Below, in pieces: positions 17,519 through 38,939 of a stretch of 64,000 nt of DNA. The DNA comes from Lunularia cruciata. Taxonomy: Eukaryota > Streptophyta > Marchantiopsida > Lunulariales > Lunulariaceae. The stretch lies in assembly GCA_948567375.1 (NCBI GenBank), contig OX419762.1, positions 33,113,465 through 33,177,464 on the forward strand, in the 5' to 3' direction. Position 1 is the stretch's first letter; every line of letters begins with the position of its first letter. The position numbers and the translations under genes are program-made. Below the pieces are notes generated by a model. It saw only the letters and a list, made by a program, of their open reading frames with translations, searched no databases and was not told the origin of the DNA.

Positions 17519-20500
17519 TTCATACAATTCCTCATTCCTTGCTTGCTTTGAAGAAGCTAAAAGGATCACCGTTTGATCAAAAATGAAATCTAAGAAATAG
17601 TATGAAGTATCAAGATGAAACTATAAAAATAGCCAATGAGAAAATAGAAAGGATTATATTTCTAAGTTTAACATTTTAATATTTACAAGGGTTTCAAGAT
17701 AAGATAACAAAAAAATCTCTTTCCAAAGCACTATTATAGTACATGAATATGTTTAATTACATTTTCAAGCAATACAATTTTTTTATATTAGCTCTTTAAA
17801 ATATCTTGATTAAACAATAGATATCCTTACTGCATATGAGAAATATTTTAATATAATGGAGCTCTAACATCAATGATTTATCTTTCCTGCCATAGCAAAG
17901 TAAAGTGATAGGTCCAAGAGTGTGGTGATAATTATTGAGATTCCTTAGTTTTTGTGAGAAAACTCTTGATGAAAATGAAAACTGCACTTCTTAACAAACT
18001 TTAAGTGGATATTCAAGGTCATTTGAAACATCTCCAAAAAGAGGAGCCTTATCAATCTAATGATCTTTTAAAATGTTCCAATTAGTAAATAGTCTCAATT
18101 TATATATTAAAAAGATGATATTCTTTAGGTTGAGAATGATCAAGATTAATTAGGTGTCTAAAATTACCATCAATTTTAAGTTGACTTTATGATATCTGGC
18201 TGAGATATAATATTTAAACCACCTTAATCAAAAGTTGGTAGGTTTTATTTTGTCTTTGGTTCTTTCAAAACATCCAATCTTCCAATAAAATAAGTTAAAC
18301 ATCAAATTATTATTAGCCAAAGAACAGAACTTATTTTGAAGGTATTTGCTTCACATATTTAATATTGTATAGTGTCTTATATGCAATTTTCAGTTCTTTC
18401 CTATTTTCAGTTCTAACCACAATTACTATATTAGAGTTTTTTGATTCTGTTATGACACAAGATGTGGAAATTGTTAATACATTAGACTATTTTGATTTAC
18501 AAGATTATCAAAGAATTCATGGTAGGTCTTTGTGCTATAATATAAATACAAATATTTCATAGAAAAATAAATATAAGACTAGAAAAATAAAAATAAGACT
18601 ACTTGAGAATTTAAATTTATCAAAAGTAAGAAATACTATGACCAGTAATGATTTAGAAAAATATATAATTAGAAGCAAAATTTCTTTCTTTCATATTTTA
18701 GAAGATACACATCTATAATCAAAAGACAAAATAGCTATAAAAAAGCACATTGAGTTTCATAATTAGTTATTTAACATGATATGTATTCCTAAGTAGATTA
18801 AGATTGAAAATTTAATATTATTAAGTTAGATATGAACTATTTATCCAATCTTAAAAAAGCTTAAGAAAAGAGTCCGTGGGATTGTTAAAGAAAAAACTAA
18901 CAAGAAGCAATTCCATAACTCATAAGCAAAAGATAAGAGTTATTAAAGCTTATTGTGAAGATACATAGATATTGTGTATTTATATAACACATATGCATAC
19001 TATATATTATAGAAAAAATATTTATCATGAATATATATATATATATAAAAGATATTTATATGTTATTGAAGTTAAAGTGAATTTTATTTAACTTATATGC
19101 CTAATATATGGTTATAAAAACAAACAACATAGATGTTATATTTGATTTTTTATGATTTTACTGAATTTGAAACTCCAAATTCTAATACTTATTGCATAAT
19201 TTTTATCATAATCACTTACCATATAATAAAATATATTATTATGATTTATAATTTTAACATAATATATAATATGTTATAATTGCCAACTATATCATACATA
19301 GCTATATATAGAAAGTTATAGAAGGTCATAAATATGAATCAAGGCTATATTTCCAAGTTTGGTATTGCTCTATCCATAAAAAATATAGAAGATGAGTGCT
19401 AGCATATAAATTTGTTCTACTATTAAAAAATGAAATTGGATAATTATTTTTATTAAAATTTCATTATTATTCAATAGTTTTTTAATAAAGAAATAATTTT
19501 TCTTATAATTTGTGGTATATATGACGAAAATCAAGAATCAATCAGGAAAAAATCCTTGTCTTCTTGTTTTTTTAAAGAAGAAACAATGTAATTTATAGAA
19601 TTCTTTCAAAGTAAATCAAAGAAAAGTATATACATAATATTTTATATTTTCTTCAATTTTCAAAACTTTAGCAGTGTTATATTAATCATAATCCAATATA
19701 TAAATAAAACTTTTCTATGGAGGATAAACTAGGTGAATTTAGCTTATTTAGCCATCCACTTGTTTGGTTTTTTTGCAACATTAGGGAATTATTATCATTT
19801 AAATAATATAATTTAAAATTTTATTTATTTATTTTATTCTAAATGTTTCTAAATATTAGCCATTTAAAAATATTTTAAATTAAATATGATTACTTGAGAT
19901 TTTAGGGCAATTTTATGCTATACAAGTATGAAAATAGTTGTTTTTGAGTCCCATTTCATTTATTTAATCTTGTTTAGTATCATCAAAATCAAAGTAGAAA
20001 TAGTGGCACACTACAAAAGTCAGGAATAAGATGCAAGTTCTAAAGGCTCAAATGTAAGAGGAACTATTCTATAGTTGCATGGTATTGGTGTTCGAACACA
20101 AAATAAATCCCAAAGGATTTATGCAATGTGATTGGAAATAAGGAATAGTTCAAGATAAAGCAAAGCACACACATGACTCTTATCTGGGGTGAATGTGATC
20201 AATCAAAGGAATAACTTGATCATAATACATATTGTCTATTATAAACCAATGATTCAAGCCATTTAAAGCATGATTATCAACTTGGATCTTATAAAGGTGT
20301 TGTTTTTAATCTAACATGTGATTTTAAATTTGTAAGTTTGATCATCACATATATGTTTTGGTCTCTTTGGTATTTCTGAGCTTGGAGCAAAATCTGCATA
20401 AATTTTGTAATTCAACATGGATTTGATAGTACTTCAATTTGAAAACAAATCTGGAGGTAACTACCTCCACAAAAGATGAATTGTAACAAGACGTTCATGT

Positions 20501-22094: not shown

Positions 22095-22331
22095 TCGATA
22101 TGGAAAGCCTTGGAAAGATGCTTCCAAAAAAATAAAGTATACACCATTTGGAATAGTACTTACAAAGATATTGCCCCCAAGGTGTCTATTCCACCCTTGA
22201 AGGTCTCTTCTTGATCAAAGGTGATTTCTAGCTCAAATGCATCAGCACTACATTCACTATAGAAGCATACACAAACCATACATAAACCTAATCAAATCAT
22301 TTTTACAACAAGTAAGCAATCTACTTCATAA
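22095..22331 (-). repeat. LTR part of the outer Gypsy fossil (3' side)
   Basis: Shares landmarks such as AAAGATGCTTCCA and TTCACTATAGAAGC with 36022-36256 over its whole length, with visible divergence. It lies just downstream of the integrase C-terminal remnant on the minus strand, as a 3' LTR would. Confidence 0.6.
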
Positions 22332-25300
22332 CGTCCACTCCATCTTGACTTGTTCATTGTCAAGATGTGCAACTAAAATCCAAGTTGAAGTGGACTGCAT
22401 TACTCTTGATATTCATCATATTGATGTTCATAAGCATCTTGATTACCCTCATCTGCATCTGCATTTCTATCATCCATCTCATCGTTTGGAATTTGAAAGT
22501 CTTGAAAAGAACTATCCATTTCCTTTTTCCTAAACATTTTTACCCTCTTACCAACAATTGGTGCTCTAAGTATTGTCTCATCTAGTTCTCTCAACCTATA
22601 AGTTCCATTTTCAAGAATCGAAATAATGACATAAGGAACCACGTCCTAAAATTTTTTTAAGCTGTACTATGCTGGTTACCAAGACTACTATCATTAACTA
22701 AAACCCATTCATTTTCCTTTAAAGGAGTAGGTCTTAATCTATGAGTTTTATAAGTTTTTGAGCATACATCAACTCATATGGCATGTATCCTTTCACCAAG
22801 CTATGTATAGTCATATCAACCCACAAAGCAAAGGGTAGTATTTTAGGCCATTGATGCATCTTTCCATTGCAAGCTTTCACAAATGCTTTCACTATTGGAG
22901 AATGACCTTCCTCACTTTCTTGGTTCCTTCTAGATTGTAAGCAACAATCAAGGATAGATGCCCCCCAATCCTTTGGAAAAATGCCATGGATTGTTCAACA
23001 TCTAGCTCACCTCTATATGCAACAAAATTTCACACACATCTATACAGACAAATAATCTCCTTCAAAATGAACAAACAACACTTTTCTACTTTTTGTCATT
23101 AAAGCCCCTTAGCATCATAACCAATTTCAACTTGATTGGTAAGATCCTCCCTAGCAAGAATTAAGTATATCCTTTGCCAAACTCCCTTAGGCATCACAAC
23201 AATATCTACCAACTACATATAGTGCATGGTCAATGGGTATGTTGGATGAAGTTCCTTCCTTTACTAGATAGTGGAATAAAATATTGGTACCAACAAATGA
23301 GACTACATCCCTATACATTTTTTCCACCAATACTTCTCCTTCTCCTAAGTTTGGAAAATGTAGCCCATACATCTTGATGTCATGCCCTAAGACTATCATG
23401 ATACTCCATGATCAAACCAAGTCTTTGTTTTAGGATCACAAATAACCCTTTGAGAGATTCCACCTGAAACTATTGGATGCTTTCCCAAAATTCCTTCTCT
23501 CAAGAAATAGTAATATGCCTTCCTTTTGATCCATTTGAAAAGTTCATTCTTCCAACCTTCTTGTTTGTTGAGAGTGCTCAAGTACTTCCTGATTGCCAAC
23601 CTTTCTCTTTCATATAAGTTCTCACTGCACAACTCAAAAGCAAAGGTAATAGGCTCCCTAGCACTTTTTACAACTATTATGCTGGAGAAGTCATCTCACA
23701 AAATTGACTTCCTCTACTTTGCTTGCTCTTTGTTGAACCTTGCTCTAGATAGCATATTAGCCACCAGATTTCCAGCTCCAAAAATATGCCAAAAATCTAG
23801 ATTTAATGTCTTGATGCAAGCTATCCATCAAGGCATAGCAAAATATGGAGTTGAAAAATATGTGATCATACCAAGTTGTGGCAAACAATATGTTTCCACA
23901 ATCAATGGTGCTCCTAGAGAGTACTCCTTATCTAACCACATATCTTTGGACATCCTCATCCTCTTTCCCTACTACACAACCTAAACCAGTAATACTAGTA
24001 TCAACTATAAGAAATATATACTTATCTACTTCATATGATACCTTCCTCATCACAAGTGCAAAAAGCAATGACCTCTTCAACTTTTGTATGTAATAAATTT
24101 GGTTCTCTTCCCATTGAAATTTCTCCACATTCCTTAATAGTTTATAGAAAGGATATGTAGCATGTGAAAAATGAGGAATCCAAGTCCTATAAAACAAACA
24201 ACCACCTAAAAACCTTCTAACTTCTATCCCAGTGTTGCATATTTCACAAATTCTCACTATGGCTTGCAATTTCTATGGAATTGTCTTCTTACCATATGGT
24301 CTACACAAATGCCTAACTACAAGTATTTCATGAACCCCAAATGTTGATTTTTCTCCCAAAAATGTGAGATGTACTTCCTTCAACCTTGAAAGAAATTTGT
24401 CACAATCTATTATATGATTTGCAAAATTTTTCCTACAACCTGTTGTATCCACTTGCTCATCCTTCTCTATTGCTACACGTCCTTTGAAAGCATAGTTTTC
24501 TCTAGAATGAAGTCCCCTAGAACACTATGCATACCACTCATCATGTAGGCTATAGACTTTGTGGCTCCTTGAGGTAAGGTACACATTCTCATCAATCCTA
24601 ATGGAATTCTCATTGCTGTCAAATCCTTACTCCCCTCAACTCATTGAAATTGATGATAACAGGAATACAGGTCTCATAGTGAGTAAATGGACCAACCTGC
24701 AAATTCCTCTGCAAACTCCTCCACTATAGGACCTACACCCATGTTTGTAATGATAATTTGGTTCATAGGTTGTATATTTTGTATAAATTTGAGTTTTAGA
24801 TTCTTTTTAGAGAACTTTAAAACACCTAATAGAATAAGGAGCTATAGAAGGTTCTAAAATTCCCATTTGAACCTTCTCATTTAACAAAGCACAATAAGAC
24901 TTGGCAAATGAGCTTTAGGAATAGGAATTAGTCTCAAATTCCATAGAACATGCAAAACTATGAAAAATATGATAGGCTATACAATGGCTGGATGTACGCA
25001 TCCTATTTCTAAAGGTTGAAAAGAAAAGGCTTTACCATATTTTCATAACATTTCAATAAATACGCTCTTCTCTTCATCCATAAAAAAATTAAAAATAAAT
25101 CCATAAAAATATTTCCCTCTCCAATCTTCAATATCTTCAAAGTCTCTTCTATGAACTAATGATGGACCCTTGCATGCTCTATAAGATTTTGCTCCTTTGC
25201 TATCTATCCCAACTATTGTAGCAAGTCTACATGCAATGCATGAGCAATTGGCTCCACCTAATTATCCATATTTCATCTCATCTACTACTTCTTGGTTACC

Positions 25301-25386: not shown

Positions 25387-25941
25387 TGTCACGCCATTTG
25401 TAGTTCCGCATCTAGATGCTCGGACACTGGAGTTCCAGTGATGGTAGTTAGAGTTATTCTAGCAGTTTCTCAAGGACTACTTTCCGACGGTTAGATTTTG
25501 TGTTCAGGGTACTGACTTCACGGTGGGGCCCACCGTCACTTTGCACCGTTTGCACCGTCGAGTGTGCCGTCAGCGGGACCGTTAGGGTTTCAGGGCTAGC
25601 TCGAGTCCAAGGGGTATAGTTTTGAAGTGAGCTCCAGAGAGCTCACTTCTCTGATGTTGAGCCTTCGAGTTCCTGGCTATGGTGGACAAAGGCCGGCGAG
25701 CGTCACCTGGATTCTCTATGCTTGAGTGGGTGTGGCTTGACTGTAATCAGTGCCCAGTTGTTGGCAGTTTATAGAGTGACAGATCAAGTACTGATCTGAG
25801 TTGAGTTGAGTTGAGAATGTTAAGCAATCTGATTATTGTGGCACTTTAGAGTCTATGTATGACTTATGAGTGAGTTGTGCTTTTATAGTGTATGATGTTG
25901 ACAGCGATGTATGTTGTGTAGCAATGTATATACGCACGACA
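25387..25941 (+). repeat. Solo LTR of the methyltransferase-bearing Gypsy family
   Basis: A 555-bp unit starting TGTCACG and ending CGACA, so TG...CA with TGTC/GACA inverted ends. It is flanked by CTAT at 25383-25386 and 25942-25945, a 4-bp target-site duplication. It is the reverse-orientation relative of 26182-26719 and 35334-35772. No internal region accompanies it, so it is a solo LTR left by recombination. It contains an internal hairpin (AGTGAGCTC/GAGCTCACT) that is also present in the other copies. Confidence 0.85.
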
Positions 25942-26181
25942 CTATAGAATAATTATAGATCTTGGATAACTTACTCAAATCATCTAAGAAATACTTCTAC
26001 TCTAAAACCCATGATACAAATTCTCCCTCTTCCATTTCTTCTTCTTCTACCAACAGTTTTTGCATGCTTTTTACTTAGGCTCCTCCTTCTCTCCCTAATT
26101 CTGCCACTTTGGTAACCAACCAACCACCATCCTATGTGACATGTGCAAAGCCTATACAAAAGAGCTTCTTTTTGTCCTTGT

Positions 26182-26719
26182 TGTTGTGCGTAAATACATC
26201 GCTGTCAACATCATACACTATAGAAGCACAACTCACACATAAGTCATACATAGACTCTAAAGTGCCACAATAATCAGATTGCTTACCACTCTCAACTCAA
26301 CTCAACTCAGATCAGTACTTGATCTGTCACTCTATAAACTGCCAACAACTAGGCACTGATTACAGTCAAAGCACATTTTCTCAAGCATAGAGAATCTAGG
26401 TGACGCTCGTTGGCCTCTGTCCACCATAGCCAGGAACTCGAAGGCTCAACATCAAAGAAGTGAGCTCTCTGGAGCTCACTTCAAAACTATACCCTCTGGA
26501 CTTGAGCTAGCTCTGAAACCCTAACGGTCCCACTGATGGCACACTCAACGGTGCAAATGGTGCAAAGTGATGGTGGGCCCCACCGTGAAGTCAGTACCCC
26601 GAACACAAAATCTAACCATCGGAAAGTAGTCTCTGAGAAACTACTGAAATAACTATAACTACTATCATTGGATCTCTAGTGTCCGAGCATCTAGATGCAG
26701 CACTACAACTCACGTGACA
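26182..26719 (-). repeat. 3' LTR of the methyltransferase-bearing Gypsy
   Basis: 538 bp, full length by comparison with the solo LTR at 25387-25941, with TGTCACG at its 5' end (26719) and CAACA at 26182. The 4-bp flank TTGT lies just outside. Confidence 0.85.
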
Positions 26720-26721
26720 GC

Positions 26722-26829
26722 TGTCGTGCATATATACATCACTACACAACATACATCGCTGTCAACATCATACACTATAGAAGCACAACTCACACATAAG
26801 TCATACATAGACTCTAAAGTGCCATAATC
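26722..26829 (-). repeat. Detached LTR tail next to the 3' LTR
   Basis: This repeats the last 105 or so bases of the LTR, from TGGCACTTTAG to CGACA, and is separated from the intact 3' LTR by only GC (26720-26721). The preceding GATTA also ends the truncated 5' LTR at 35334. It resembles an LTR-LTR junction of the sort seen in circular or concatemeric cDNA. Confidence 0.8.
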
Positions 26830-27009
26830 GCCCCCCTAGCTGGCGGTTAGGTCCCTATAACTCCAGATAGCCATCTACTCTAAGTATATGGTATACCCTC
26901 TAATGGTTAAAGATCAAGAGGCCGGGTGCTATGGAGCCCCATCGTTAGTCGCCTGTCTGCAATCTATACCATATAAAGAATGAACTAGCTATAGGTCAAG
27001 TACATCTAG

Positions 27010-27143
27010 GAAATAACCACTATCCTTGAGGAACCACCGTGAGGGGAGGAGTCATACATGCCATATGCCATCCTCTCAAACAACTATCACACACTAACAT
27101 AGTAGCAGCTCCACTAGAAGAGCCACATAACATACACCTCAAG
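27010..27143 (-). mobile_element. PHD finger at the end of the Gypsy pol region
   Basis: The reading LRCMLCG, then MLVCDSCLRGWHMACMTPP and LTVVPQG, followed by W..PRC, gives the C4HC3 spacing and the GWH..C..PPL..VP signature of a PHD zinc finger. PHD fingers are known as histone H3 tail readers. It follows a GPY/F-like stretch and the linker NCGPCHLPNIDG, where chromoviruses carry a chromodomain. By analogy it may have steered integration to chromatin; that is inference. Part of a broken element. Confidence 0.82.
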
Positions 27144-27239
27144 CCTGCACGTACAAGTGCCAAGCTTGGGTCCATAGTACCATCAATGTTTGGAAGGTGG
27201 CATGGCCCACAATTGCACACATGATCCTTCCAAACAACA

Positions 27240-28290
27240 CCATCACGTCCTTCTAACACAAGGACTCCAAATGGCAAAACCTCACGCACTCTCAAGATAG
27301 TGCGGCCTATAGAAACGTCAAGTGTCGTCGGTGTTGTCTGCTGTAGATATACATAGTCACCTGGATGAAATTGATGGATTGAGGATCTATAACCTCTTCC
27401 TCGAATTGTAGCATAGCGTAAAGTATCTCTATGCTGAGCAATCGCCAAGTTCTCAAAGGCCATCGGCATCACTCTCCAAAAGATCTCTACCCGCTGAGAA
27501 CATGCGCTCATCCATACATTAGGGTCATCCAAGTCCAAAACTACAGTAGCATCTTGACAAATGGCTGGAGGTAAATCTGGATCTCGTCCATAGAGTAGAA
27601 AGTATGGAGAGAAGGATGCTAAGGAGGCTTGCCGGCTGAACCGATAGCCCATGGCCAACCAAGGTAATTGGAGATCCCAATCTCCCAAGTGGCCCCTCTG
27701 CAAACCATACTTTTGCAATCATCTCTTCACCGTCTGAACCACTCTCTCTGCTAATCCATTTGCGCAGGGTGATCTTGGGATATAGTATGATGATCAATCA
27801 AAGCCTTGTCACACAAGACCTGAAACTCCCCCAAGAACTTTGTACCCTGATCAGTCAAAACCTCAGCTGGTGCACCAAAATGACAAGAACTCAATCCAAG
27901 AACAAGTAAGTTGTCCCTTCACTAGACTTGTCAGGAAGTGCCACCAACTCAATCCACTTGGAGAAGTGCTCCACCATCACGAAAACATACCGATGATGTT
28001 TCACAGGCAGCAGTAAAGGTCCGGCAAAGTCCAAACTCCAATGGTAACCCAATCCCATGATAGGTAATGGGTGTAACTATGGCGTAGGAGCATTGAATGA
28101 TGCTCTAACTCTGTCACAAACCACACATCTGGCAGCAAACTGATGTACCTCGGTCTGCATACCACGCCACCAATAATGACTCTGGAGTAAGCTATATGTA
28201 TGCTTTACTCCAAAATATCCTAGCTCCTCATGAGCATGACGGACCAACTGTGGTCTCTGTGATGGAAGTGGTACTACTTGCACTCTACCA
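27240..28290 (-). mobile_element. Gypsy integrase region (fossil)
   Basis: An H2C2 zinc-binding motif is seen as HAHEELGYFG followed by CVVCDR near 28.1-28.25 kb. The catalytic-core region lies around 27.5-27.96 kb, and a C-terminal stretch (HPGDYVYLQ, PFGVLVLEGRDGVVW) resembles the GPY/F module. The element is broken. Confidence 0.8.
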
Positions 28291-28599
28291 TCCTCCCATA
28301 CACGCAAAAGGTGTCTACCCTCCAATCTGAACCATCTGGCTCGCTGAAGAACACGGTCTCTCTCCTTGGCCTCAACTGTGCCACCCACAACACCAATGCA
28401 AAGATAGTCCATCACTAAGACATCATCATGAATGTCTCGCTGAACTATACCAATATCTTCACTCTCTGGATCTGTGACCTCGATAACTCCTCTTGTATGC
28501 GCTGAGAGAGATACCACCAAAGCCTCTACAAATATACACAGAAAGGCCAATGCATGCCAACCTGACACCATCTCCTCATCTGTCTTACCATGCCAATGT

Positions 28600-28850
28600 G
28601 CTCCGGTCTGATCCTGCTGGCTAGGACATGGGTTCCTACTCAACCCATCTGCATCACGGTTCACCACTCCAAGTCTGTGAACAACCGTGAAATCATACTC
28701 CTGTAAAATTAGGGCCCATCGTGCAAGCTTCCCTAAAAGTTTGTCGGACTCCATCAACCACTTCAGCGGCTGATGATCAGTGATGAGAGTGAAGGGGTTA
28801 CCAAATAGGTAACATCGGAAATGTGCTACTGCCCAAACGGCTGCCAAACA
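28600..28850 (-). mobile_element. Gypsy RNase H region (fossil)
   Basis: The motifs HFRCYLFG, LITDHQPLKWLM, KLARWALILQEYDF and NRDADGLSR are typical of the RNase H that follows RT in Ty3/Gypsy elements. It joins directly to the integrase region. Confidence 0.88.
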
Positions 28851-28997
28851 CTCTCCCTAATATGAACTATACTTCACCTCCGCTGAATTGTTGGAGCAAC
28901 TAGCATAGGCCACCACAAACTCCTTCCCCTCATCATCATGCTAGGTGAGCATCGCTCCAAGCCCCAACATACTCCAATCAGTGTGAACCTGAAATGG

Positions 28998-30110
28998 TTA
29001 TCCCCTGATCGGTCTCCTCAAAATAGGAGCAGATGTCAACCTCTCCTTGAGCTCTACAAAATCTCTCTCTTGCTCATCTCCCCAACACCACTCTTGTGTA
29101 AGCTTGGTCAGCTTCGTCAAGGCCTTGGCAATGGCACTAAATCCTCTAACATAGCGGCGATAGAAGTTTGCCAACCCAAGGAATGCTCGCACTCTGCTCA
29201 CATCCGTAGGCCGAGGAATATGTGCAATAGCCTCCACCTTGGTCTGCTGAACACCAAGTCCTCCGGGGTAGATAGTGTGACCCAAATACTCAACCTGCTC
29301 GTGGAAGAACCTACACTTCCCAGGATGTAATTTGAGTCCATGAGATCTCAACCTCTCAAACACCTCCAACAACTGTCTCTCATGCTCCTCCACAATAGTA
29401 CTATAAACCAAAATGTCATCAATATAGCACCAAGTAAAATCCAATCTAGCTAGGATCCTATCCATGACCCTCTAGAACTCAGCAGGAGCATTCTTTAACC
29501 CAAATGGTAAGAACCTCCACTGATATAACACATCCTTGCCGTGAGGATCAATAGCCTAAAATGTTGTCTTGGACTTATCCTCCTCCCTAATCGGCAACTA
29601 ATGATATCGCGCTCGAAGATCCAAAGTACTGAAGATCTTTGCATGCCCAATTGCATCAAAAATCTCCTCCGGTGTAGGCATGGCATACCGATCAGCCCTG
29701 GTCTGTTGGTTGATAGGACGGTAATCTCCACACATCTGCCTATCTATATAGCTGCCATGCATATCCTTCTTGGTTGGCATCACTGTTGCTGATGCATACT
29801 CTCCATGTGAAATCTCCAACAAACCAGCCTCAAAAAGGTCACCACTCCGGCTCTGAATCAATGTCCTCTCCATATCACTATATCGATAAGGACGTCGGAA
29901 AACTGGTGTGTCGCTAGTTAGCTCAATCCGTATACCAGGTCCCTTTAGAGCACCCAAATCCTTCATACTGAAGGCAAAACAACTTGTGTGACTCCTCAAG
30001 AACCTCCAAACCCTCCGTCTTTCCTCTCTAGTAAGCTTGGGTCCAAGATCTGGCTCCCAAGTATCCTCTATAACTGTAGTAGGAGTGGAAGACGTACTGA
30101 CTGACTGCTA
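28998..30110 (-). mobile_element. Gypsy reverse transcriptase region (fossil)
   Basis: The reading includes CGDYRPINQQT, FSTLDLRARYHQ, the catalytic CYIDDILVYS box near 29.4 kb, and the thumb motif VRAFLGLANFYRRYV. These place it firmly in Ty3/Gypsy. The element is broken. Confidence 0.9.
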
Positions 30111-30429
30111 CACTGGGCCCTTGGGAGCAGTAGTGTCATGTTCCCGACCACTAGAGGTCCCAACCTCTGTGTGAAAAACTCCCTCCACTCTAGCTGCAAG
30201 CTCCACACATCCTCTAGCTGCATCCCATGTGGACCAAGGGTGTAATCTAAGTAGCCCATGCTCACCTGGATGGACTCCAAGTAGACCACTCTCCCTAGTA
30301 GCTACTGGATGTGTCCCAAGAATACCATGTGCACTCGGTCCATCGCCCCCAACATGTGCCTGAATCGTCTTGATAGGCACATGGCTCCCAAGTGTCCGAG
30401 TGGTGATGCCTATCAAGCACATCCTACGC

Positions 30430-31290
30430 TGCTCTGCCAAGCCAAGGCTCACAATCCAGGTCCATAGCCTGATCTAACACCTGACGCATGGATACCTCTA
30501 ACACGGCTGGAACAACGGTAATACCGGTGCAAAAACCCATCGCCCGCTCTCTCTCATCAACGTTGGGCTCCACTAACTGCTGTAACTATGAGTCCCAAAC
30601 AAGTCTAGGTCCTCCTTCTTGAAAATCATGAGAACTTGGGAAACTCATGAGTGTGGGAAATGCGGCTCTAGGCTGTCCAACTAGGTTCACCACTGCCATA
30701 GGTGACCTATCAGCCACTACCACTGTCTAAGATTGACGCCCAACATCCAAGATATCATCAACAAGGATGTGGTCAAGTCGCTGAATCCCATCATAAGTGC
30801 GCTGTAGAACCTTTCTGGGTAAGAGGTTTGTCCACCAAAGATGACAATGAACCCGTGATCCCACTCTGGCTGCATCTAACAATACAGTAGGTCCCATCCA
30901 AGAGTGGACCTGATGTATACTCGCCACCACTCTAGTGCAAAAATCACCCATCAAAAAAATGTTCTCCAAAAGGTAAGCTCGAGAAATAGACTGATGTGTA
31001 TGTCCCTGACATGGCTATCCAGAAATCACCAAGTGAATAGGCCCATGTCTCTCTAGGTCATGCGCTCCTAGTAAGGAAATGTCTCCTGGTAGGGCCTTAT
31101 GGTAACCTCTAATTGCTGACATCGGTAATAACTCCGGATACCGATAGGCCAAGTGTGCCACATGATGTAGAGAGACTTGCCTAACAGTCTCATCTCTCTC
31201 TACATACAAGTACCTTTGTACTTGTATACCCGCCTGTAACACCGTAGCTAGTCCGGTGCTGATCCCACCAAACAACTCCAATAGGCATAT
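30430..31290 (-). mobile_element. Cytosine-C5 DNA methyltransferase domain inside the Gypsy element
   Basis: Between protease and RT lies a C5-MTase with recognisable motifs in order: motif I LLELFGGISTGLATVLQAG (31284-31228), an acidic cofactor-binding stretch YLYVERDE, IHLVISG followed by the catalytic PCQG (motif IV, near 31.0 kb), LENIF (motif VI type), LLDAARVGSRVH and WWTNLL. The C-terminal block is NVDERERAMGF then QVLDQAMDLDC (motifs IX-X). Overall it resembles DNMT3/DRM-like enzymes. In the family these transfer methyl groups from S-adenosylmethionine to cytosine. The same strand, its position within the polyprotein order and the surrounding pol domains argue for capture by the element rather than chance insertion of a host gene. 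The copy belongs to a broken element. Confidence 0.85.
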
Positions 31291-31619
31291 CTCCTCTATT
31301 GGATATTGCCAAGCAATGAGTGTGGTATCCAGAGGTGTCAAAGCAATTGTCTCTAGAGGCTCATCCTCACACTCATCTCTTGATGGTATGAAGGCTCCAC
31401 TCCAAGCCTGCTGCACCAACTGATCTGCATGCTGTTGCAATGCCTCCTCTGAACTCCACAATGGAACATCCAAGGTGGATGGAACAATCCCACTTGTACT
31501 CCAAAAGCGAGTGATCTCCTTTGGTATTGGAGTATCCTCTGCATGGGCGCTCCCCTCCAACAAGTCACCAGGCCAAGTAACTGCACCACTGAAAGCTAAA
31601 ACTTATGCTGCCATGGTCC

Positions 31620-32060
31620 CGGACTGTAGTGAGCCAAGACTGCCACTACTAAAGCATACTTGTAGGCAACATACCCATCCCTCACCAGACTGCCAACCAG
31701 GTCTATAAGAGGCTATCTCCTCCCAATAGTCAATGCTGAAACCCATGGGGTATAACACTGCTCCCCCAACTAGCACATCATATGACTCAACTATCGTCGC
31801 AATAGCATGAGCTCTCACCACCGAGCTATCAGTCGGATAACCAGGCTGAACCTGGACAACAAGCTCTCCACGTGTGATGTATTGTGTCAAACCACCACCT
31901 AGAGATGTCTAGATCTGAAATGGACACCTCTCTACATTGGTCATTCGTAACTCCAGACCGACATCTACAACCTTCCCCAACATAAGAGGCTGCGCACCAG
32001 AGTCTAACAAGACTCTCTGTGGTGTATAGACCTTCCCTGAAGGTCCAACCAAACAAAAAA
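31620..32060 (-). mobile_element. Gypsy aspartic protease region (fossil)
   Basis: RVLLDSGAQPLMLG near 32.0 kb matches the retroviral-type aspartic protease active site (DSGA), followed by LTQYITRGELVV and VLVGGAVLYPMG. It lies between the gag zinc knuckles and the methyltransferase region. Confidence 0.75.
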
Positions 32061-32889
32061 TCGCCCTCTAGTTATCCAATATGACAACACCAGGTGTAAA
32101 CTGCACTCTCTCAAAGGTCGGTCTAGCTGGCAACTCCTCCAGTCTAGCTGCTGCTGCCTGCCATAAACCAATGGTTGCTGAATGGATCCCATGCTCCTCA
32201 ACCAAGTTAGCTCCACTACCAACCACCTCTGCTCTAGTAGTAGGAACTGCACCATCCCTACTCTCACACAACGTGGCAGCCAACCGGAACACTAGGGTTG
32301 GGTCAACTCCCAATGTAAACATATCATTGGCCAAAAACAAAGGATGCCGCATAATCAGCTGAGCCGCCCTCAACATCATGCTAGACTCAGTCTGTGTAGT
32401 AGCAAGTGGCTGACTAGCAAGTAGTCCATCATGTAATCCATCACCACCTACCACATTTGCACTAGGACGTCTAGGAACCATGGATGTCGTCTGCAATGCC
32501 TCAGATAGCGTGAAAGATTGGGGAAGTCTGACCTGTCTTCCAACCTCTCCTCTCTATGGGTCCAACTCCACTGATGCTCCTCTAGGCTCTGGAGCACGTA
32601 CTGCACTCCTAGTCATTGCTGCAGATGCATCCACCTGTGTTGCTCCGCACATGAAGTCCAAAGCATCTCTATCACTAGCATATGAGGTGGAAGCCTCAGC
32701 ACCTGAATCTGATCTCCTCTAAGCAATAGCCATACTAGCCAATCTCTACTCCAACTGCTCAATCCGAGTAGCCATAGTTGTGTCAGAAGTAAGGGCAGGT
32801 ACTGCACCCCTACTAGGTGTAGATCTTCTACCACCACCTCTACCACCTCATCCTGCATGAATTGGAGCTCCTCTACTACCTACCATAGA

Positions 32890-33065
32890 AGCCCTACCAC
32901 TCCATAACTCCGGGTATAGGTCAAAACACCGATCACTAGTGTGACCAAATCTGTGGCAGTGCTCACACTGCCTCTGTGCTGGCTATGATGCACTTGAGGT
33001 ATCAAGTCCATTGCCTTGAGTACACTCTCTCCAATGGTGAGGTCCACCACAAGTTCAACAAGCAA
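32890..33065 (-). mobile_element. Gag zinc knuckles (fossil)
   Basis: Two CCHC-type knuckles on the minus strand. One is a perfect CX2CX4HX4C (CEHCHRFGHTSDRC); the other reads TCGGPHHWREC. They are typical of the nucleocapsid part of gag. Confidence 0.8.
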
Positions 33066-33195
33066 CCACACCACTCATTGGCTGATGCTAACCTAAAAAT
33101 GAGGGTAAGGGTCTAACTCCACTAGGCCCTCCACTCAATCCATAGGATCTGGGCTGTCCACCCTGTCCTCGAAAACCAACTGGGCGTGGTGCACT

Positions 33196-34281
33196 CTACT
33201 GCACTCTAGAAGAAGTCACAACCGTGGATGAGGTCTCCCTACCAAATCTAGATGTCACCACTCTCTCCTCCACCATGTTGAGCTCAATATGCTCAGCCAA
33301 ACCAAAGACCACTACCAAAGTAGGCAAAGTAGCCTGTAACAACGTAACATCACGATCTCTACGTCGCAACTCCTTGTCTAGTATCCCATACCAAAATTGG
33401 ACTGCTTGGGCCTCAATAACTCCCTGAGTGAAACTAATCAGTCGCCTCATGCGAGTGTATGCCTCACGTAGGCTCTCTCCAGCCTTCCGCTGGAACTCCT
33501 ACAAGCTCCTCAGCTTCTCAGTCCGCACTCCTTGATAGTTTTGCCTCAAACATAGGAAGAACTCCACCATGGGGTTAAACTCCGGTACCACACCACCTCT
33601 TGCAACGGTACCTCCACTTGTAGTAGCACTATCTCCAGCTAGTACACCTCCACTAGCTCCACCCACACTACTTGAGCTAGAACTCGTAGGTACAGCCGAT
33701 CTACTCCTGGCCACCGAGCTTGAAGTGATGGAGACATAGTGTGGAGACCAATACTGTCTCCATAACTCAATCTCCTCCAAATGAGCTCTCCTGAACTCAT
33801 GGTAGTCATCCATCAGCGGACCCTCCAGATGCTGAAACAACCCCTTCCATGCCATGAAGGATGTGAACAAAGTCGGGTTCCGCATCTATTGCAGATCACA
33901 CCAACTATCAAACTCCTGGATGAAGTCATCCAACTCAATGGTGCCCAATGTACCAGAGTAACGCCTAGGGCCTTTGGAGGCCCCATAAATCTTATCCATG
34001 TCTCACAACAACGGTGCGGACATACCAAGTGCACTCTCAACTGAATCAGCTCTTGTGTCGAACTCCAACTCAGAGTCAATCTCCTCCCTCACTGGGACCT
34101 GAGATATAGGCTGATACCAAGCACCACTCCGAGTAAACCCACTACGTACTGCAAGGCTAACTCCTATGGAATCTCCAAAGAACTCCGTAAGTAACTGCAA
34201 CAGCAAACCCGAACCACCAACTGCAACCGCAAGTCGCAACCGCAAGTGCCCCACCAAGTGCCAACACCAACTAAGCACCAC
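33196..34281 (-). mobile_element. Gag capsid region (fossil)
   Basis: Minus-strand open stretches with MRNPTLFTSFMAWKG and AVQFWYGILDKELRRRD fit a Gypsy gag capsid domain upstream of the knuckles. Similarity is by position and general pattern. Part of a broken element. Confidence 0.6.
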
Positions 34282-34730
34282 ACACTAATGTAACTTGAAC
34301 CGAGATAAATACACTGGGGAAAAGGCAACCTGTAACTTGCAATCATAACATGCGCTCTCACGGTCTGCAAGTCATCACTTCCTACCTCACCGGAGAGAAA
34401 CAAAGGTAGTTTGACTGGTCATCACTCCAGCCTCACCATCGAGAGCACACCAGAGCACCAACGCTCAAAAGTCAGGGCACCTCACACAAACATGGTGCAC
34501 AAACAAGAAGCAGAGAATGGAGGGGGGTCCAATCACAAGAAATCTAAACGAAAACCCTCCATCTCATAACACAACATAGGATTGACTATGTCACCATCTG
34601 GCATTTGACATAAGAGGAGTTAGTATCTAAGTCCTAAGCTACCAGGATCACCAAGAATGAGATCAAATTGCCTCTCCTAGCCAAAGCTACATGTGTATAG
34701 ATAATAGTGGTACAGTCACTATGAAAACAA

Positions 34731-34800
34731 GTGAGGGTGGACCAGTTGGCTAGGGCACCAGTCTAGGAACAAGAGATCTAGGGGTCAAATCTTGTTGTGC
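34731..34800 (+). repeat. tRNA-like SINE head
   Basis: The stretch has a box A-like GGACCAGTTGGCTAGGGC, an anticodon-arm-like CAGTCTAGGAACAAGAGATC and a box B-like GGTCAAATC at tRNA spacing. It lies in the leader between the 5' LTR and gag of the Gypsy fossil and is opposite in orientation. A tRNA-derived SINE insertion or tRNA-pseudogene relic is likely. The body after 34800 is unrecognised, and I do not see clear target-site repeats. Confidence 0.45.
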
Positions 34801-35333
34801 AAATTCTGGCCAAATGAGGCCTTTCTATAGAATCTGGCTGAAATTCAGCCAAATGAGGCCTTTCTTGTTGCCACTTCAAACCTCATCCAAAATTGGCGAA
34901 ACTTCTCCACATCTGGCCAAAATCTGATGTAAACCCTAAAGTTGGCTGTCCGCCAAATCCCCCGCTAACTTTCCACTCGAGCCAAATTGACAACACGGGT
35001 TTTTCCAAATCACAAATTCATGAGAAGAGCTTCCCAACTCCACCTTCAATTTGACTTTCTGAGCCCAACTCGTAGCAAATTGGTCATGCTTTCATCTCTT
35101 GAGCTCAAAATCACAACCATTTGCTCCTTCTTTGCTCAAAATTTGGCCAGCGCTTCCGCACACCGTCCGCCTAACTGCCAAATCTGCATCAATTGAACAA
35201 GCTTTTGCACACTAGGGAAACACTGAACTTGAATCGAGCTACCAACGATCCACCGAGCTTAGAGATACCACCAACACTCAAAGTTCCTGCACCCGATTTC
35301 CCCCTGACTTCCCTTCTCTGATGTAATCAGATT

Positions 35334-35772
35334 GCTTACCACTCTCAACTCAAATCAACTCGGATCAATACTTGAGCTATCACTCTATAAAATGCCAACA
35401 ACTGGGCACTGATTACAGTCAAGCCACACCCACTCAAGCATAGAGAATCCAGGTGATGCTTGCCAGCCTCTGTCCACCATAGCCAGGAACTCGAAGGCTC
35501 AACATTAGAGAAGTGAGCTCTCTGGAGCTCACTTCAAAACTATACCCCCTGGACTCAAGCTAGCTCGGAAACCCTAACGGTCCCGCTGACGGCACACTTG
35601 ATGGTGCAAACGGTGCAAAGTGACGGTGGGCCCCACCATGAAGTCAGTACCCCGAACACAAAATCTAACCGTCGGAAAGTAGTCTCTGAGAAACTGCTGA
35701 AATAACTATAACTACTATCACTGGAACTCTAGTGTCTGAGCATCTAGATGCGGCATTACAAATGACATGACA
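35334..35772 (-). repeat. 5' LTR of the methyltransferase-bearing Gypsy, lacking its tail
   Basis: 439 bp matching the first four fifths of the family LTR, starting TGTCATG at 35772 and ending GATTA at 35334. The following bases CATCAGAGAAGG may be the primer-binding region. The missing last part is found beside the 3' LTR at 26722-26829. Confidence 0.82.
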
Positions 35773-36021
35773 TTGTGAGCAAGGACAAAGATGTGGTAGC
35801 ACTATACTTAGTGCCACCACATTCATGCTTTATAATGGCACTCTTAAAAATCCCCTTCATCAAGAAGATCAACAACACTAACCCTAAACACTCCTTATAT
35901 TTGGTAAGGATCATCCTTCAATTTGTCCTTATTCTTGTGATGGTTGGCACAAATAGTCAAGAATTGCACCACTTTTGTGCCATCCTACTCCTTATTTGGA
36001 CACACATAGATCCATCATCTA

Positions 36022-36256
36022 AAACTCTTGAAAGCCTTGAAAAGATGCTTCCAATGGGATAAATCATACCCCATTTGGACAAGTACTTATAAAGGTATTG
36101 GCCTTGAAGTGTTTGTTCCACCCTTAAAGGTCTCTTCTTGACTGAAGGTGAATTCCAACTCAAATGTATCACCATTACATTCACTATAGAAGCTTACAAA
36201 AACCATATAGAAACCTTATCAAATTGCTTTTACAATGAGTAAGTAGTCTACTTCAT
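36022..36256 (-). repeat. LTR part of the outer Gypsy fossil (5' side)
   Basis: The counterpart of 22095-22331 in the same orientation, starting TGAAGTAGA on the minus strand. The TTGT-flanked inner element begins about 250 bp away. Confidence 0.6.
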
Positions 36257-37437
36257 GACAATGCGGTGGTTGAAAACCCCTCACGAGTAGAATCACTAAC
36301 ACGGGTAGAAAATAGGTGGAACTAGTAACAACCATTGATTCTTGGAGGAAGGAGGATCATTTTACACCTGATTATCCTTTGATAAGGTTGTTTCTTTTGC
36401 TGTTGAGATTTTTGGCCACTTTTATCCGCACTTAGACGGTTTCCTCAAAGAAGCAACACAAGGCCATTCCTTTTGCTAATGAGATTTTTGTGCATCTTTA
36501 TTATCAATTGAAAGTTCTCTTCAAGGAAGCCACACAAGTTCCTTATAGAGGAGAAAAGTATCAGTTCTCTCTCCAACCATCCTCACATCCTATTACAGAT
36601 AGCAAGTCTCAATCACTTTATAACATTTTAGCCCTTAGGTCTACAAAGAAGAGCATACAAGAAACAATGATAAGAAAAGCTGACATGGCTAAGGTTTTCT
36701 CTCCTCTCTAACCTGATATATTACTAGAGAATCTCTACAACACCATTCAACAAGTTACTTTTCTCTTAGTCTCTTTAGTCTTAGTTGCATTCTACTCCTT
36801 GCTTGGTTGGGATTATTTTCTTGCTCTTTTTTCTTTCAAAGGTGGATGCATCATTATTACAAAGGGTGGAGAGAAAATCTAGAGGCTTCACATGTCATAG
36901 AGAATAGAGGAAAAAGCCATTATAAAGGGTAGAGAGGGCACAACTAGTCTAGAGGTAGATCAAAATCACAAATAGATAAAATGTTACCACTATGGTATGC
37001 TTAAACTTCAAACAAAATTGTAGGTTGTTAAAGCAAGAACAAAGTAACAACAAGAAAGCAAATGATTGGAACAACACAACTACTACATCATTTTTTAGTA
37101 CAAAGGATTGCAAAACATTACTTTGTGTAAGTAGTGATTATGATCAAATCAAGGATCCCATCACTGTATGGATAGTTGACTCTATTGCATCATATCATTG
37201 CATCCTAAGACACAAGTTCTTCACTACATACAAGGTAGGATATCTTGACAGAGTGGGGATAGGCAACAAGAGTGTTGTAGAAATCATAGGATTTGGTGAT
37301 ATTGTTATATTGACCAATGCATGTTGTACAATGATCTTAAAATGATGTGTGCTATATATCAGAGTTGCGGTTAAACTTAATGTCCTCAACTATGCTTGAT
37401 AAAGAAGAATATAACCAACAATTTGGTGATGGTTTAG

Positions 37438-37486
37438 GGCAATGAAACCTTGGTCAACCTTGGAAGCTGACCAAGGTTTCATTGCC
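37438..37486. repeat. 19-bp perfect hairpin inside the Copia fossil
   Basis: Arms 37438-37456 and 37468-37486 (GGCAATGAAACCTTGGTCA and its complement) surround an 11-base loop. It belongs to the set of short-loop hairpins in this window. Confidence 0.85.
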
Positions 37487-38939
37487 AGTTGAACAAAGAA
37501 ACTTATGTTTTACTCTATATAAGACAACTATGAAAGTGTGTAGTCTCCAATTGAATGTTGTTGAAGATGGTGCTTCTCTAAATTTGCAGCACAAAAGGCT
37601 AGCTCACATGAGTGAGAAAGGATTGTAGATTTTCATAAGAAAATCTTTCATTTTTTCTATCAAAGGTTTTGTACCATTTTCCTAAAGTTAATCACCATAA
37701 CAACTATATATATTTGAGAAACAACACAGAGTCCTTTCTTGTAGTACATCCAAGCAAAAAGAAACTAGAGTTGGTACTTTTTTATGTTTGTGGTCTCATG
37801 GAGGTAGAATTACTGGGAGGATATGGATACTTTGTTATGTTCATTGATGATGCATCAAGAAAAACTTGTGTTTATCTATTTTGGTCAAAGAATGTGGCAT
37901 TCTTGAAATTTCAAAAGTTTCACGCTATGGTTGAAAGGAAAATAAGAAAACATTTGAAGTGGATAGAACCATGTACTCCACAGCTCAAGGGTGTATTAGA
38001 GAGAATGAAACAAACTATTATAGAGAAAGTAAGGTGCTTATTGAGAATTGCCAACTTGACCAAGTCATTTTGGGGAGAAGCAATCAACACCACTTGCTAC
38101 ATGATAAACCAATTTTTGTTAGTACCTTTGGATAATGACATCTTGGAGAGAATGTGCATAGGTAAGAATGTATCTTACCATCATCTAAATTTTTTTGGTT
38201 GCAAAAATTTTATGTACATGCCAAAAGAACAAAGAACAAAGTTGTACATTAAAGCCAAGGAGTGCATTTTTGTAAGATATTGAAATGAGGAGTATGGTTA
38301 TAGACTACAAAATCAAAAAGAAGTAATTTGTCAAAATTAGGGATGTGATTTTTCAAGAGTAGGAGATTGTGAGAATGGAAAGTAGACATAAGCTACAATT
38401 AGTGCTTTTGACATAAATATTTTAGGAGAGGGTAGAATCTCTCATAAAGCAAAAAAGTGAAGAAGTACCAAGAAATAATGAGCCAACTAGGATTATAAAT
38501 GATGTCATTGAGTCAAAAACAAAGAGTGTTGAGTAGGGGACACAACCCAAACATTGTTACCTCAAATGAGGAGATTTGAGATGGATCAATAATCATCCAC
38601 TAGACATCCTAGTTTTGAATATGTCTAAATCATTGATCAGGAGGAGCCAAAAGATTTTCATGATATACCGGTGCACAAAGAAGAGGAGCAAGATTCAAGC
38701 AATGCAAAAAAAAAGAGATGAGCTCTTTGGAGAAGAACATCACTTATGATTTGGTGAAGCTACTAGAAGGTAAGGAAGAATTTCAAAACAAGTTGGTATT
38801 CAGGTTGAAAAAGGATAGTGAAAAGCTAGTGGAGTAAAATGCTCAATTAGTAGTTAAAATCTTTGCACAAAAATAGTGCATTGATTTTGATGAGATTTTC
38901 TTTATGGTTGTGAAGATGAGTTCAATCATAATTGTCCTT

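Follow-up and report, generated by a model that had tools for sequence, protein, structure and literature searches.

A predicted DNMT3-type cytosine methyltransferase in the Gag-level frame of a Gypsy-type retrotransposon family of the liverwort Lunularia cruciata

The window analyzed here is a stretch of 64,000 bp from contig OX419762.1 of Lunularia cruciata. It contains a decayed retrotransposon on the minus strand, bounded by terminal repeats and by a 4-bp target duplication on both sides (Table 1). Read along that strand, the domain order is gag-protease-MTase-(UAG)-RT-RNase H-integrase-PHD, where MTase stands for the methyltransferase and RT for the reverse transcriptase. The protease, a motif that we take to be a CCHC zinc knuckle, and gag lie upstream of the MTase in the same frame; downstream of it, the RT, RNase H, integrase zinc finger and PHD finger lie in other frames, and each of these four gave a Pfam match from the window sequence itself. 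The gag region of the window had no significant Pfam match. The Pfam protease match was found in a relative, P0107, at 7.1e-6, which is slightly below the cut-off. No Rfam family matched the 64-kb window at the gathering threshold, and the viral contigs scanned contained no relative of the element. Elsewhere in the window, pieces of further retroelements were recognized by eye, namely Copia-like integrase text (36980-38283, plus strand) and Gypsy-like RT text (23928-24524, minus strand). A direct repeat of 230 bp, 82% identical between its two copies, flanks the element (22103-22332 and 36030-36259), and the G+C content of positions 18001-20000 is 21.8%, well under that of the surroundings.

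Table 1. Features of the element in the window, listed from its 5' side
Feature	Position	Strand	Basis
Whole element, A1 to B2, 9591 bp, decayed	26182..35772	-	repeats, ends, 4-bp target duplication on both sides
Target-site duplication TTGT (plus-strand reading), A1 end	35773..35776	.	sequence reading
Terminal repeat A1, 449 bp, no B after it	35324..35772	-	repeat comparison
gag region, 1 internal stop	33199..33885	-	matches 89-94% identical in 19/20 copies
Presumed CCHC zinc knuckle (CEHCHRFGHTSDRC)	32926..32967	-	translation
Aspartic protease region (RVLLDSGAQPLML; DSGA), limits approximate	31700..32067	-	translation; 52-residue core in 20/20 copies
Predicted DNMT3-type C5 cytosine methyltransferase (MTase), broken in window copy	30427..31320	-	motifs, relatives, tree
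TAG between gag-protease-MTase frame and RT frame, followed by CAG TCA	30108..30110	-	junction reading
Reverse transcriptase, 2 open pieces	28998..30107	-	PF00078 2.6e-14 (second piece); both pieces matched in other copies
RNase H (C-terminal part) and integrase zinc-binding domain	28077..28856	-	PF17917 9.1e-18, PF17921 2.4e-15
Integrase core region, DDE type, frames broken	27527..28076	-	translation; PF00665 1.1e-12 at the same place in L012
PHD finger, C-terminal end of Pol	27038..27136	-	PF00628 4.3e-7; 7.4e-10 in L012
Repeat B1, 106 bp, 2 bases before A2	26722..26827	-	repeat comparison
Terminal repeat A2	26271..26719	-	0.104 substitutions per site from A1
Repeat B2, slightly shortened	26182..26270	-	repeat comparison
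Target-site duplication TTGT (plus-strand reading), B2 end	26178..26181	.	sequence reading

An earlier note on this DNA had proposed that C5-MTase motifs stand in order, in line with Gypsy genes on one strand. Inspection of the translation agreed: motifs I (LLELFGGISTGL), IV (PCQG), VI (LLEN), VIII (HCHLWW) and IX/X (ERERAMGF...VLDQAMD) follow one another in one minus-strand frame from 31320 to 30427. This frame is interrupted by three TAG stops (31017-31015, 30729-30727 and 30588-30586), lacks about 37 residues after motif IV in comparison with the relative P0034, and changes near 30475, ahead of the RT. Pieces of the window copy searched singly against Pfam gave no MTase match, and among solved structures (PDB) a window-copy piece gave a weak match to DNMT3A (E = 0.051). 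A 195-residue window piece, comprising the linker and the N-terminal part of the MTase, matched 66 proteins at E ≤ 0.01 (best, 1.7e-62). Among these were proteins named Marchantia polymorpha and Calypogeia fissa, and one protein, P0019, in which the protease and the start of the MTase occupy a single frame. When eight relatives were scanned, P0034 (from Calypogeia), P0014 and P0061 passed the PF00145 cut-off and the other five had no PF00145 match at E 0.1; a copy from the same genome, L009, was also above the cut-off (1.9e-7). The profile match that the earlier note had asked for was thus obtained from relatives and not from the pieces of the broken window copy, which is why the MTase assignment rests on relatives.

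The type of the enzyme was assessed from structure matches and motif order. Among solved structures, the L009 domain matched DNMT3A best (1.2e-11), with DNMT3B and 3C next and HaeIII (7.7e-4), 4onj ("DNA methyltransferase"; 0.008) and DRM2 (0.012) lower down. Motif VIII of the element (SRAHRLRLWW) resembles AAHRARYFW of DNMT3A and has the DNMT3-like pattern AHRxRxxW, and the order I, IV, VI, VIII, IX/X is unrearranged, as in DNMT3s. A DRM origin was ruled out, since the order is not circularly permuted; the DRM-like gene of the host (L002/L031) is permuted, unlike the element MTase. Judged by its motifs and relatives, the domain is predicted to be a DNMT3-type C5 cytosine methyltransferase.

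A PF00145 search of the assembly (565.8 Mb, 74 contigs) returned at least 123 places over the cut-off, these being the best 123 of 2161 candidates scored. Thirty of the places were read: 25 are copies of the element (L005-L028 and L033), four are host or other enzymes (L001-L004), and L032 was assigned to neither class. In a search with the RT only, the best 150 of 25592 candidates were all 91-100% identical to the window RT, and 19 of these 150 have an open frame of 1037 codons, three of the 19 with a TGA inside the match. Domain order was checked in 20 copies picked from the MTase list, mostly for their long frames. Protease, MTase and RT occur in that order in all 20; gag is found in 19 (it is absent from L016), as is the integrase-PHD end (absent from L026, which is also without RNase H). 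Six further loci were picked by RT and are among the matches closest to the window RT. The MTase lies directly upstream of the RT in five of them, and in the sixth (L035) other sequence, mostly common to L016, extends up to 53 bp before the junction. The expectation that the MTase recurs between protease and RT in other family members was therefore borne out. Because the RT-picked loci are those closest to the window RT, more distant RT relatives may be free of the MTase. In L009 and L010, a single frame of 1428 codons (ORF1) encodes gag, protease and MTase, and in L012 and L013 a single frame of 1037 codons (ORF2) runs from RT to PHD. These comparisons indicate that the window copy is a dead member of an abundant, recently active family of Ty3/Gypsy type.

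Assignment to Ty3/Gypsy follows from the order protease-RT-RNase H-integrase and from the RT, whose best solved structure is that of Ty3 (E = 1.4e-37). The terminal repeats are split, with A1 at the 5' side and B1-A2-B2 at the 3' side. In the survey of 20 loci, in which several locus stretches end at 10 kb, B1 was found in 19, A2 after B1 in 17 and B2 after A2 in 14, and B follows A1 in none of the 18 loci where A1 was seen (in one case partial). The exceptions are L022, in which an inverted A replaces A2, L016, which is without any A, and L026, which is without the 3' end. A standard two-LTR element was ruled out because the two ends (A1 versus B1-A2-B2) are not the same LTR; with its repeats split in this way, the family is called Gypsy-type by its domains and not a standard LTR element. 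DIRS-type elements have a tyrosine recombinase in place of the DDE integrase. That class was rejected as well: L012 contains the DDE integrase PF00665, Pfam matched no recombinase in ORF1 (L009) or ORF2 (L012), and a 4-bp target duplication was present in three of the four cases examined. These three are the window element (ACAA on the minus strand), L011 (CATA) and a single A-B copy; L028 had no exact target duplication. The single A-B copy, which is likely a recombination remnant (A1 x A2), lies 240 bp from the element in the opposite orientation (25387-25941, plus strand), with CTAT on both sides. Directly inside A1 (about 35323-35316, minus strand) is CATCAGAG, which resembles part of the initiator-tRNA primer site but is without the first bases of that site.

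The state of the family was examined through its repeats and its coding regions. Compared with the window pair, the A1/A2 divergence of 14 other comparable copies is lower at the median (0.025 per site; range, 0.003 to 0.110). The changes in those 14 copies comprise 129 transitions versus 28 transversions, an excess that would be expected if the copies were methylated and deaminating. Some copies combine near-identical repeats with long open frames; the description of the element as a fossil thus suits the window copy and does not extend to them. Pooled over 19 copies including the window (two of 21 were not covered), the dN/dS of the MTase was 0.44, and eight of the 19 aligned copies have a stop inside the domain. 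In a neutral control, each observed change was relocated to a site in an identical trinucleotide context. Relative to this control, and with copy pairs that are not independent of one another, N/S was 0.63 for the MTase, 0.39 for gag, 0.38 for RT, 0.42 for RNase H, 0.67 for protease and 0.79 for integrase. Constraint on the MTase is moderate, present but not strong: it is weaker than that on RT, gag and RNase H but not weaker than that on protease and integrase.

The in-frame stop between the two ORFs is TAG in 27 of 27 copies (the 20 fetched, the window and six junction ends). CAR-YYA follows it in 20 of the 21 copies in which the following bases were read, the exception being L024, with CTT as the second triplet. 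Tobacco mosaic virus, among other plant viruses, uses UAG-CAR-YYA for readthrough (PMC3542737). Six given bases would fit CAR-YYA by chance about once in 512 cases at equal base frequencies. Since the copies are closely related, their agreement on the UAG context is not independent evidence, and the shared context may come from recent common descent; unlike that agreement, the frames that are open on both sides of the stop in some copies are independent evidence. As gag, protease and MTase share one UAG-ended frame before the RT, the MTase would be made at the level of Gag, and a leaky UAG would yield it together with Gag and in excess over RT and integrase. The TAG was read as DNA in the host genome, and the other species were seen as proteins or gene models. 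Closterium P0107, as annotated, has MTase and RT in one protein with no stop between them. Two ORF1 proteins of Marchantia, P0068 and P0069, stop 74 residues beyond the MTase match. Three gene models, P0070 and P0075 from Marchantia and P0087 from Sphagnum, extend into the RT but lack some of the tail, as would result from splicing across the junction.

A protein search with L009 ORF1 and the MTase region as queries, in which the best 8000 candidates by shared words were scored, yielded at least 44 relatives: 15 from Marchantia, one from Sphagnum fallax (P0087, on an 18-Mb sequence), one from Closterium (P0107) and 27 without an organism name. Overall, relatives range over Marchantia, Calypogeia, Sphagnum, the alga Closterium and metagenomes, and so a related lineage does occur in land plants, as had been suggested. 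A protease match precedes the MTase in 24 of the 44 relatives listed. An RT follows protease-MTase in P0072 and P0081, which provide further bryophyte cases (both Marchantia) with Gypsy protease and RT, and in P0107; a short RT piece is present in P0070, P0075 and P0087. A second arrangement, RT, RNase H, MTase, was seen in 14 of the listed proteins without an organism name, and P0110 has the MTase before the RT.

An MTase tree was built from 48 rows, 22 of them chosen element MTases, with two short rows dropped and P0110 on a long branch. This revealed a branch with 100/100 support that splits the 22 element MTases from 10 plant DNMT3 genes, human DNMT3A (fragment), a Closterium protein and 14 other MTases. 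The phylogenetic comparison called for by the earlier note thus places the element enzymes apart from the plant DNMT3s; a recent capture from the host's own DNMT3 is ruled out by the same branch. In the host genome itself, no fewer than two DNMT3-type genes and a DRM-like gene were found (L029, L030, L031). The best matches of L029 are MpDNMT3b of Marchantia (61%), Marchantia paleacea (60%) and Riccia fluitans (58%); it groups with MpDNMT3b and Riccia (100/99), and its motifs are spread over separate open stretches in the manner of exons. Arrangements a+n (5 rows) and b (14 rows) are divided from each other in the RT tree (support, 62/93) and again in the MTase tree (94/96); in the RT tree, which has long branches, the sole MTase-free Gypsy RT is that of Ty3. 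This split fits joint inheritance plus a move, and the simplest reading would be one ancient capture and a later move within Pol; separate captures for the two arrangements are also conceivable. Because the MTase is common to Closterium and metagenome elements, it would have been inherited from algal ancestors or moved between hosts. We read this as speaking against the capture by a land-plant element that had been proposed.

Taken together, the sequence comparisons lead us to favor, with some reserve, the view that the window holds a dead copy of an abundant DNMT3-bearing family of Gypsy type, from an old lineage shared with a streptophyte alga, whose MTase would be packaged at the level of Gag and methylate the element's own DNA, with the PHD finger serving in targeting. 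Ribosomes would mostly halt at the UAG and release a Gag-protease-MTase product, and occasional readthrough would supply RT and integrase. Joined to Gag, the MTase would be assembled into particles in excess. There it would act on freshly made element DNA, methylating it no later than integration and probably at CG, like other DNMT3s. New copies would thus be methylated on arrival, and the PHD finger may help to choose the chromatin target. That such elements methylate their own cDNA was proposed by de Mendoza et al. (passages of PMC5890265). A position in the Gag frame would fit cDNA self-methylation better than a position in Pol, since a Gag-joined enzyme would be present in every particle. 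Of the roles considered, cDNA self-methylation appears the most likely, followed by a role in binding or packaging. A bolder form of the proposal, in which a land-plant element packages its MTase by means of a tobamovirus-type UAG, every particle methylates its cDNA, copies are born methylated and the element sets its own epigenetic state, is put forward tentatively, as possible rather than probable.

It is also conceivable, if doubtful, that the MTase no longer catalyzes and rides along as a passenger, or that it serves Gag by binding nucleic acid, as a chaperone or in packaging, and has been kept for that purpose. A constraint weaker than that on RT and gag would be consistent with this, as would the behavior in yeast of an algal relative, KnitGypsy-Dnmt3, which did not methylate CG where SymbioDIRS-Dnmt3 did; its authors call the negative inconclusive (passages of PMC5890265). 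The conservation of the catalytic residues argues against it: each of the 19 MTase copies that aligned (out of 21) has the motif IV cysteine and the motif VI glutamate, and relatives from Marchantia and Calypogeia, about 70% identical, retain the catalytic motifs. We consider it unlikely that the MTase acts on host chromatin and not on the element, blurring host marks or labeling target sites with the PHD finger. DNMT3s can act on any DNA, the PHD finger stands at the end of Pol in L012, with 19 of 20 copies matching the window end piece, and 13 of 16 second-arrangement relatives showing an integrase have one too; the Gag-level frame position, however, would place the enzyme in cytoplasmic particles. 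The broken window copy might have suggested that a dead MTase gene and a Gypsy element came together by chance at this one locus; that idea is already refuted, since all 20 copies share the domain order with Marchantia P0072 and P0081 and with Closterium P0107.

The favored reading, with the MTase made together with Gag, yields a testable prediction on the amount of the enzyme and its place of action. The kind of element is already known, and the prior reports of retrotransposon MTases in a charophyte alga and in dinoflagellates on which the earlier note drew do exist (passages of PMC5890265); what is new is the land-plant hosts, the position in the Gag frame and the UAG context. In passages of a 2019 paper (PMC6338049), methylase-coding transposons are described as absent from land plants such as tracheophytes, and a virus-defense argument is built on their loss. 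Their occurrence in liverworts and Sphagnum removes bryophytes from that statement. A 2025 survey reports DNMT3s in retrotransposons of streptophytes and dinoflagellates, in passages that do not name bryophytes (PMC12344493), and the main text of the plant LTR survey of Neumann et al. 2019 contains no mention of PHD, methyltransferase or Marchantia (PMC6317226). Land-plant cases were absent from passages of PMC12344493, PMC6453930 and PMC8616336 and from a literature search by title and start of abstract, with preprints and most subscription papers outside its scope, and an earlier report is possible. The question of why a transposon carries the enzyme of its own silencing now extends to Marchantia, which is used as a laboratory plant. 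Moreover, polyproteins of this kind that are filed as host gene models (15 from Marchantia among the 44 matches listed) can distort counts of plant DNMT3s.

Several known systems can be compared with the liverwort element. Plant DNMT3 genes (MpDNMT3a/b and host L029) have the same family and motif order but lie on the opposite side of the 100/100 branch. SymbioDIRS-Dnmt3 and SymbioLINE-Dnmt of Symbiodinium are likewise retrotransposon-borne cytosine MTases; compared by description, they belong to other retrotransposon classes and are treated as independent of the Gypsy capture (passages of PMC5890265). The metagenome Gypsy polyproteins (P0089-P0108 range) have a homologous MTase, RT, RNase H and integrase, and a PHD finger in 13 of the 16 with an integrase, but their MTase lies between RNase H and integrase, unlike that of the liverwort element. 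Past the PHD finger of P0105 (about 2300-2480) and P0089 (about 1830-1985), a stretch resembling a Rossmann methylase was noted by eye (DPWAG..., with SPHF in P0105); Pfam gave it no name, and some relatives may carry two DNA methylases.

The closest counterpart by description is KnitGypsy-Dnmt3 of Klebsormidium nitens (de Mendoza et al. 2018), for which passages of PMC5890265 give Gypsy domains and, in the legend to its Fig. 4, DIRS-type repeats. Both elements have the Gypsy domain set and an unrearranged Dnmt3-type MTase, and the DIRS-type repeats fit the split repeats found here. The split repeats would be the strongest link between the two, on our reading that the legend means repeats of this form; the algal element was compared by its published description, and no protein named Klebsormidium was found among the matches listed, many of which are without an organism name. 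The hosts differ, being an alga there and a land plant here. Purifying selection is stronger in KnitGypsy-Dnmt3 (Ka/Ks < 0.2, from passages of PMC5890265) than in the liverwort element. In the same source, the Dnmt3 of KnitGypsy-Dnmt3 is placed in the Pol ORF, whereas the MTase of the liverwort element stands in the gag-protease frame before the UAG. Because of this position, we regard the liverwort element as of a related kind and do not file it as a member of KnitGypsy-Dnmt3.
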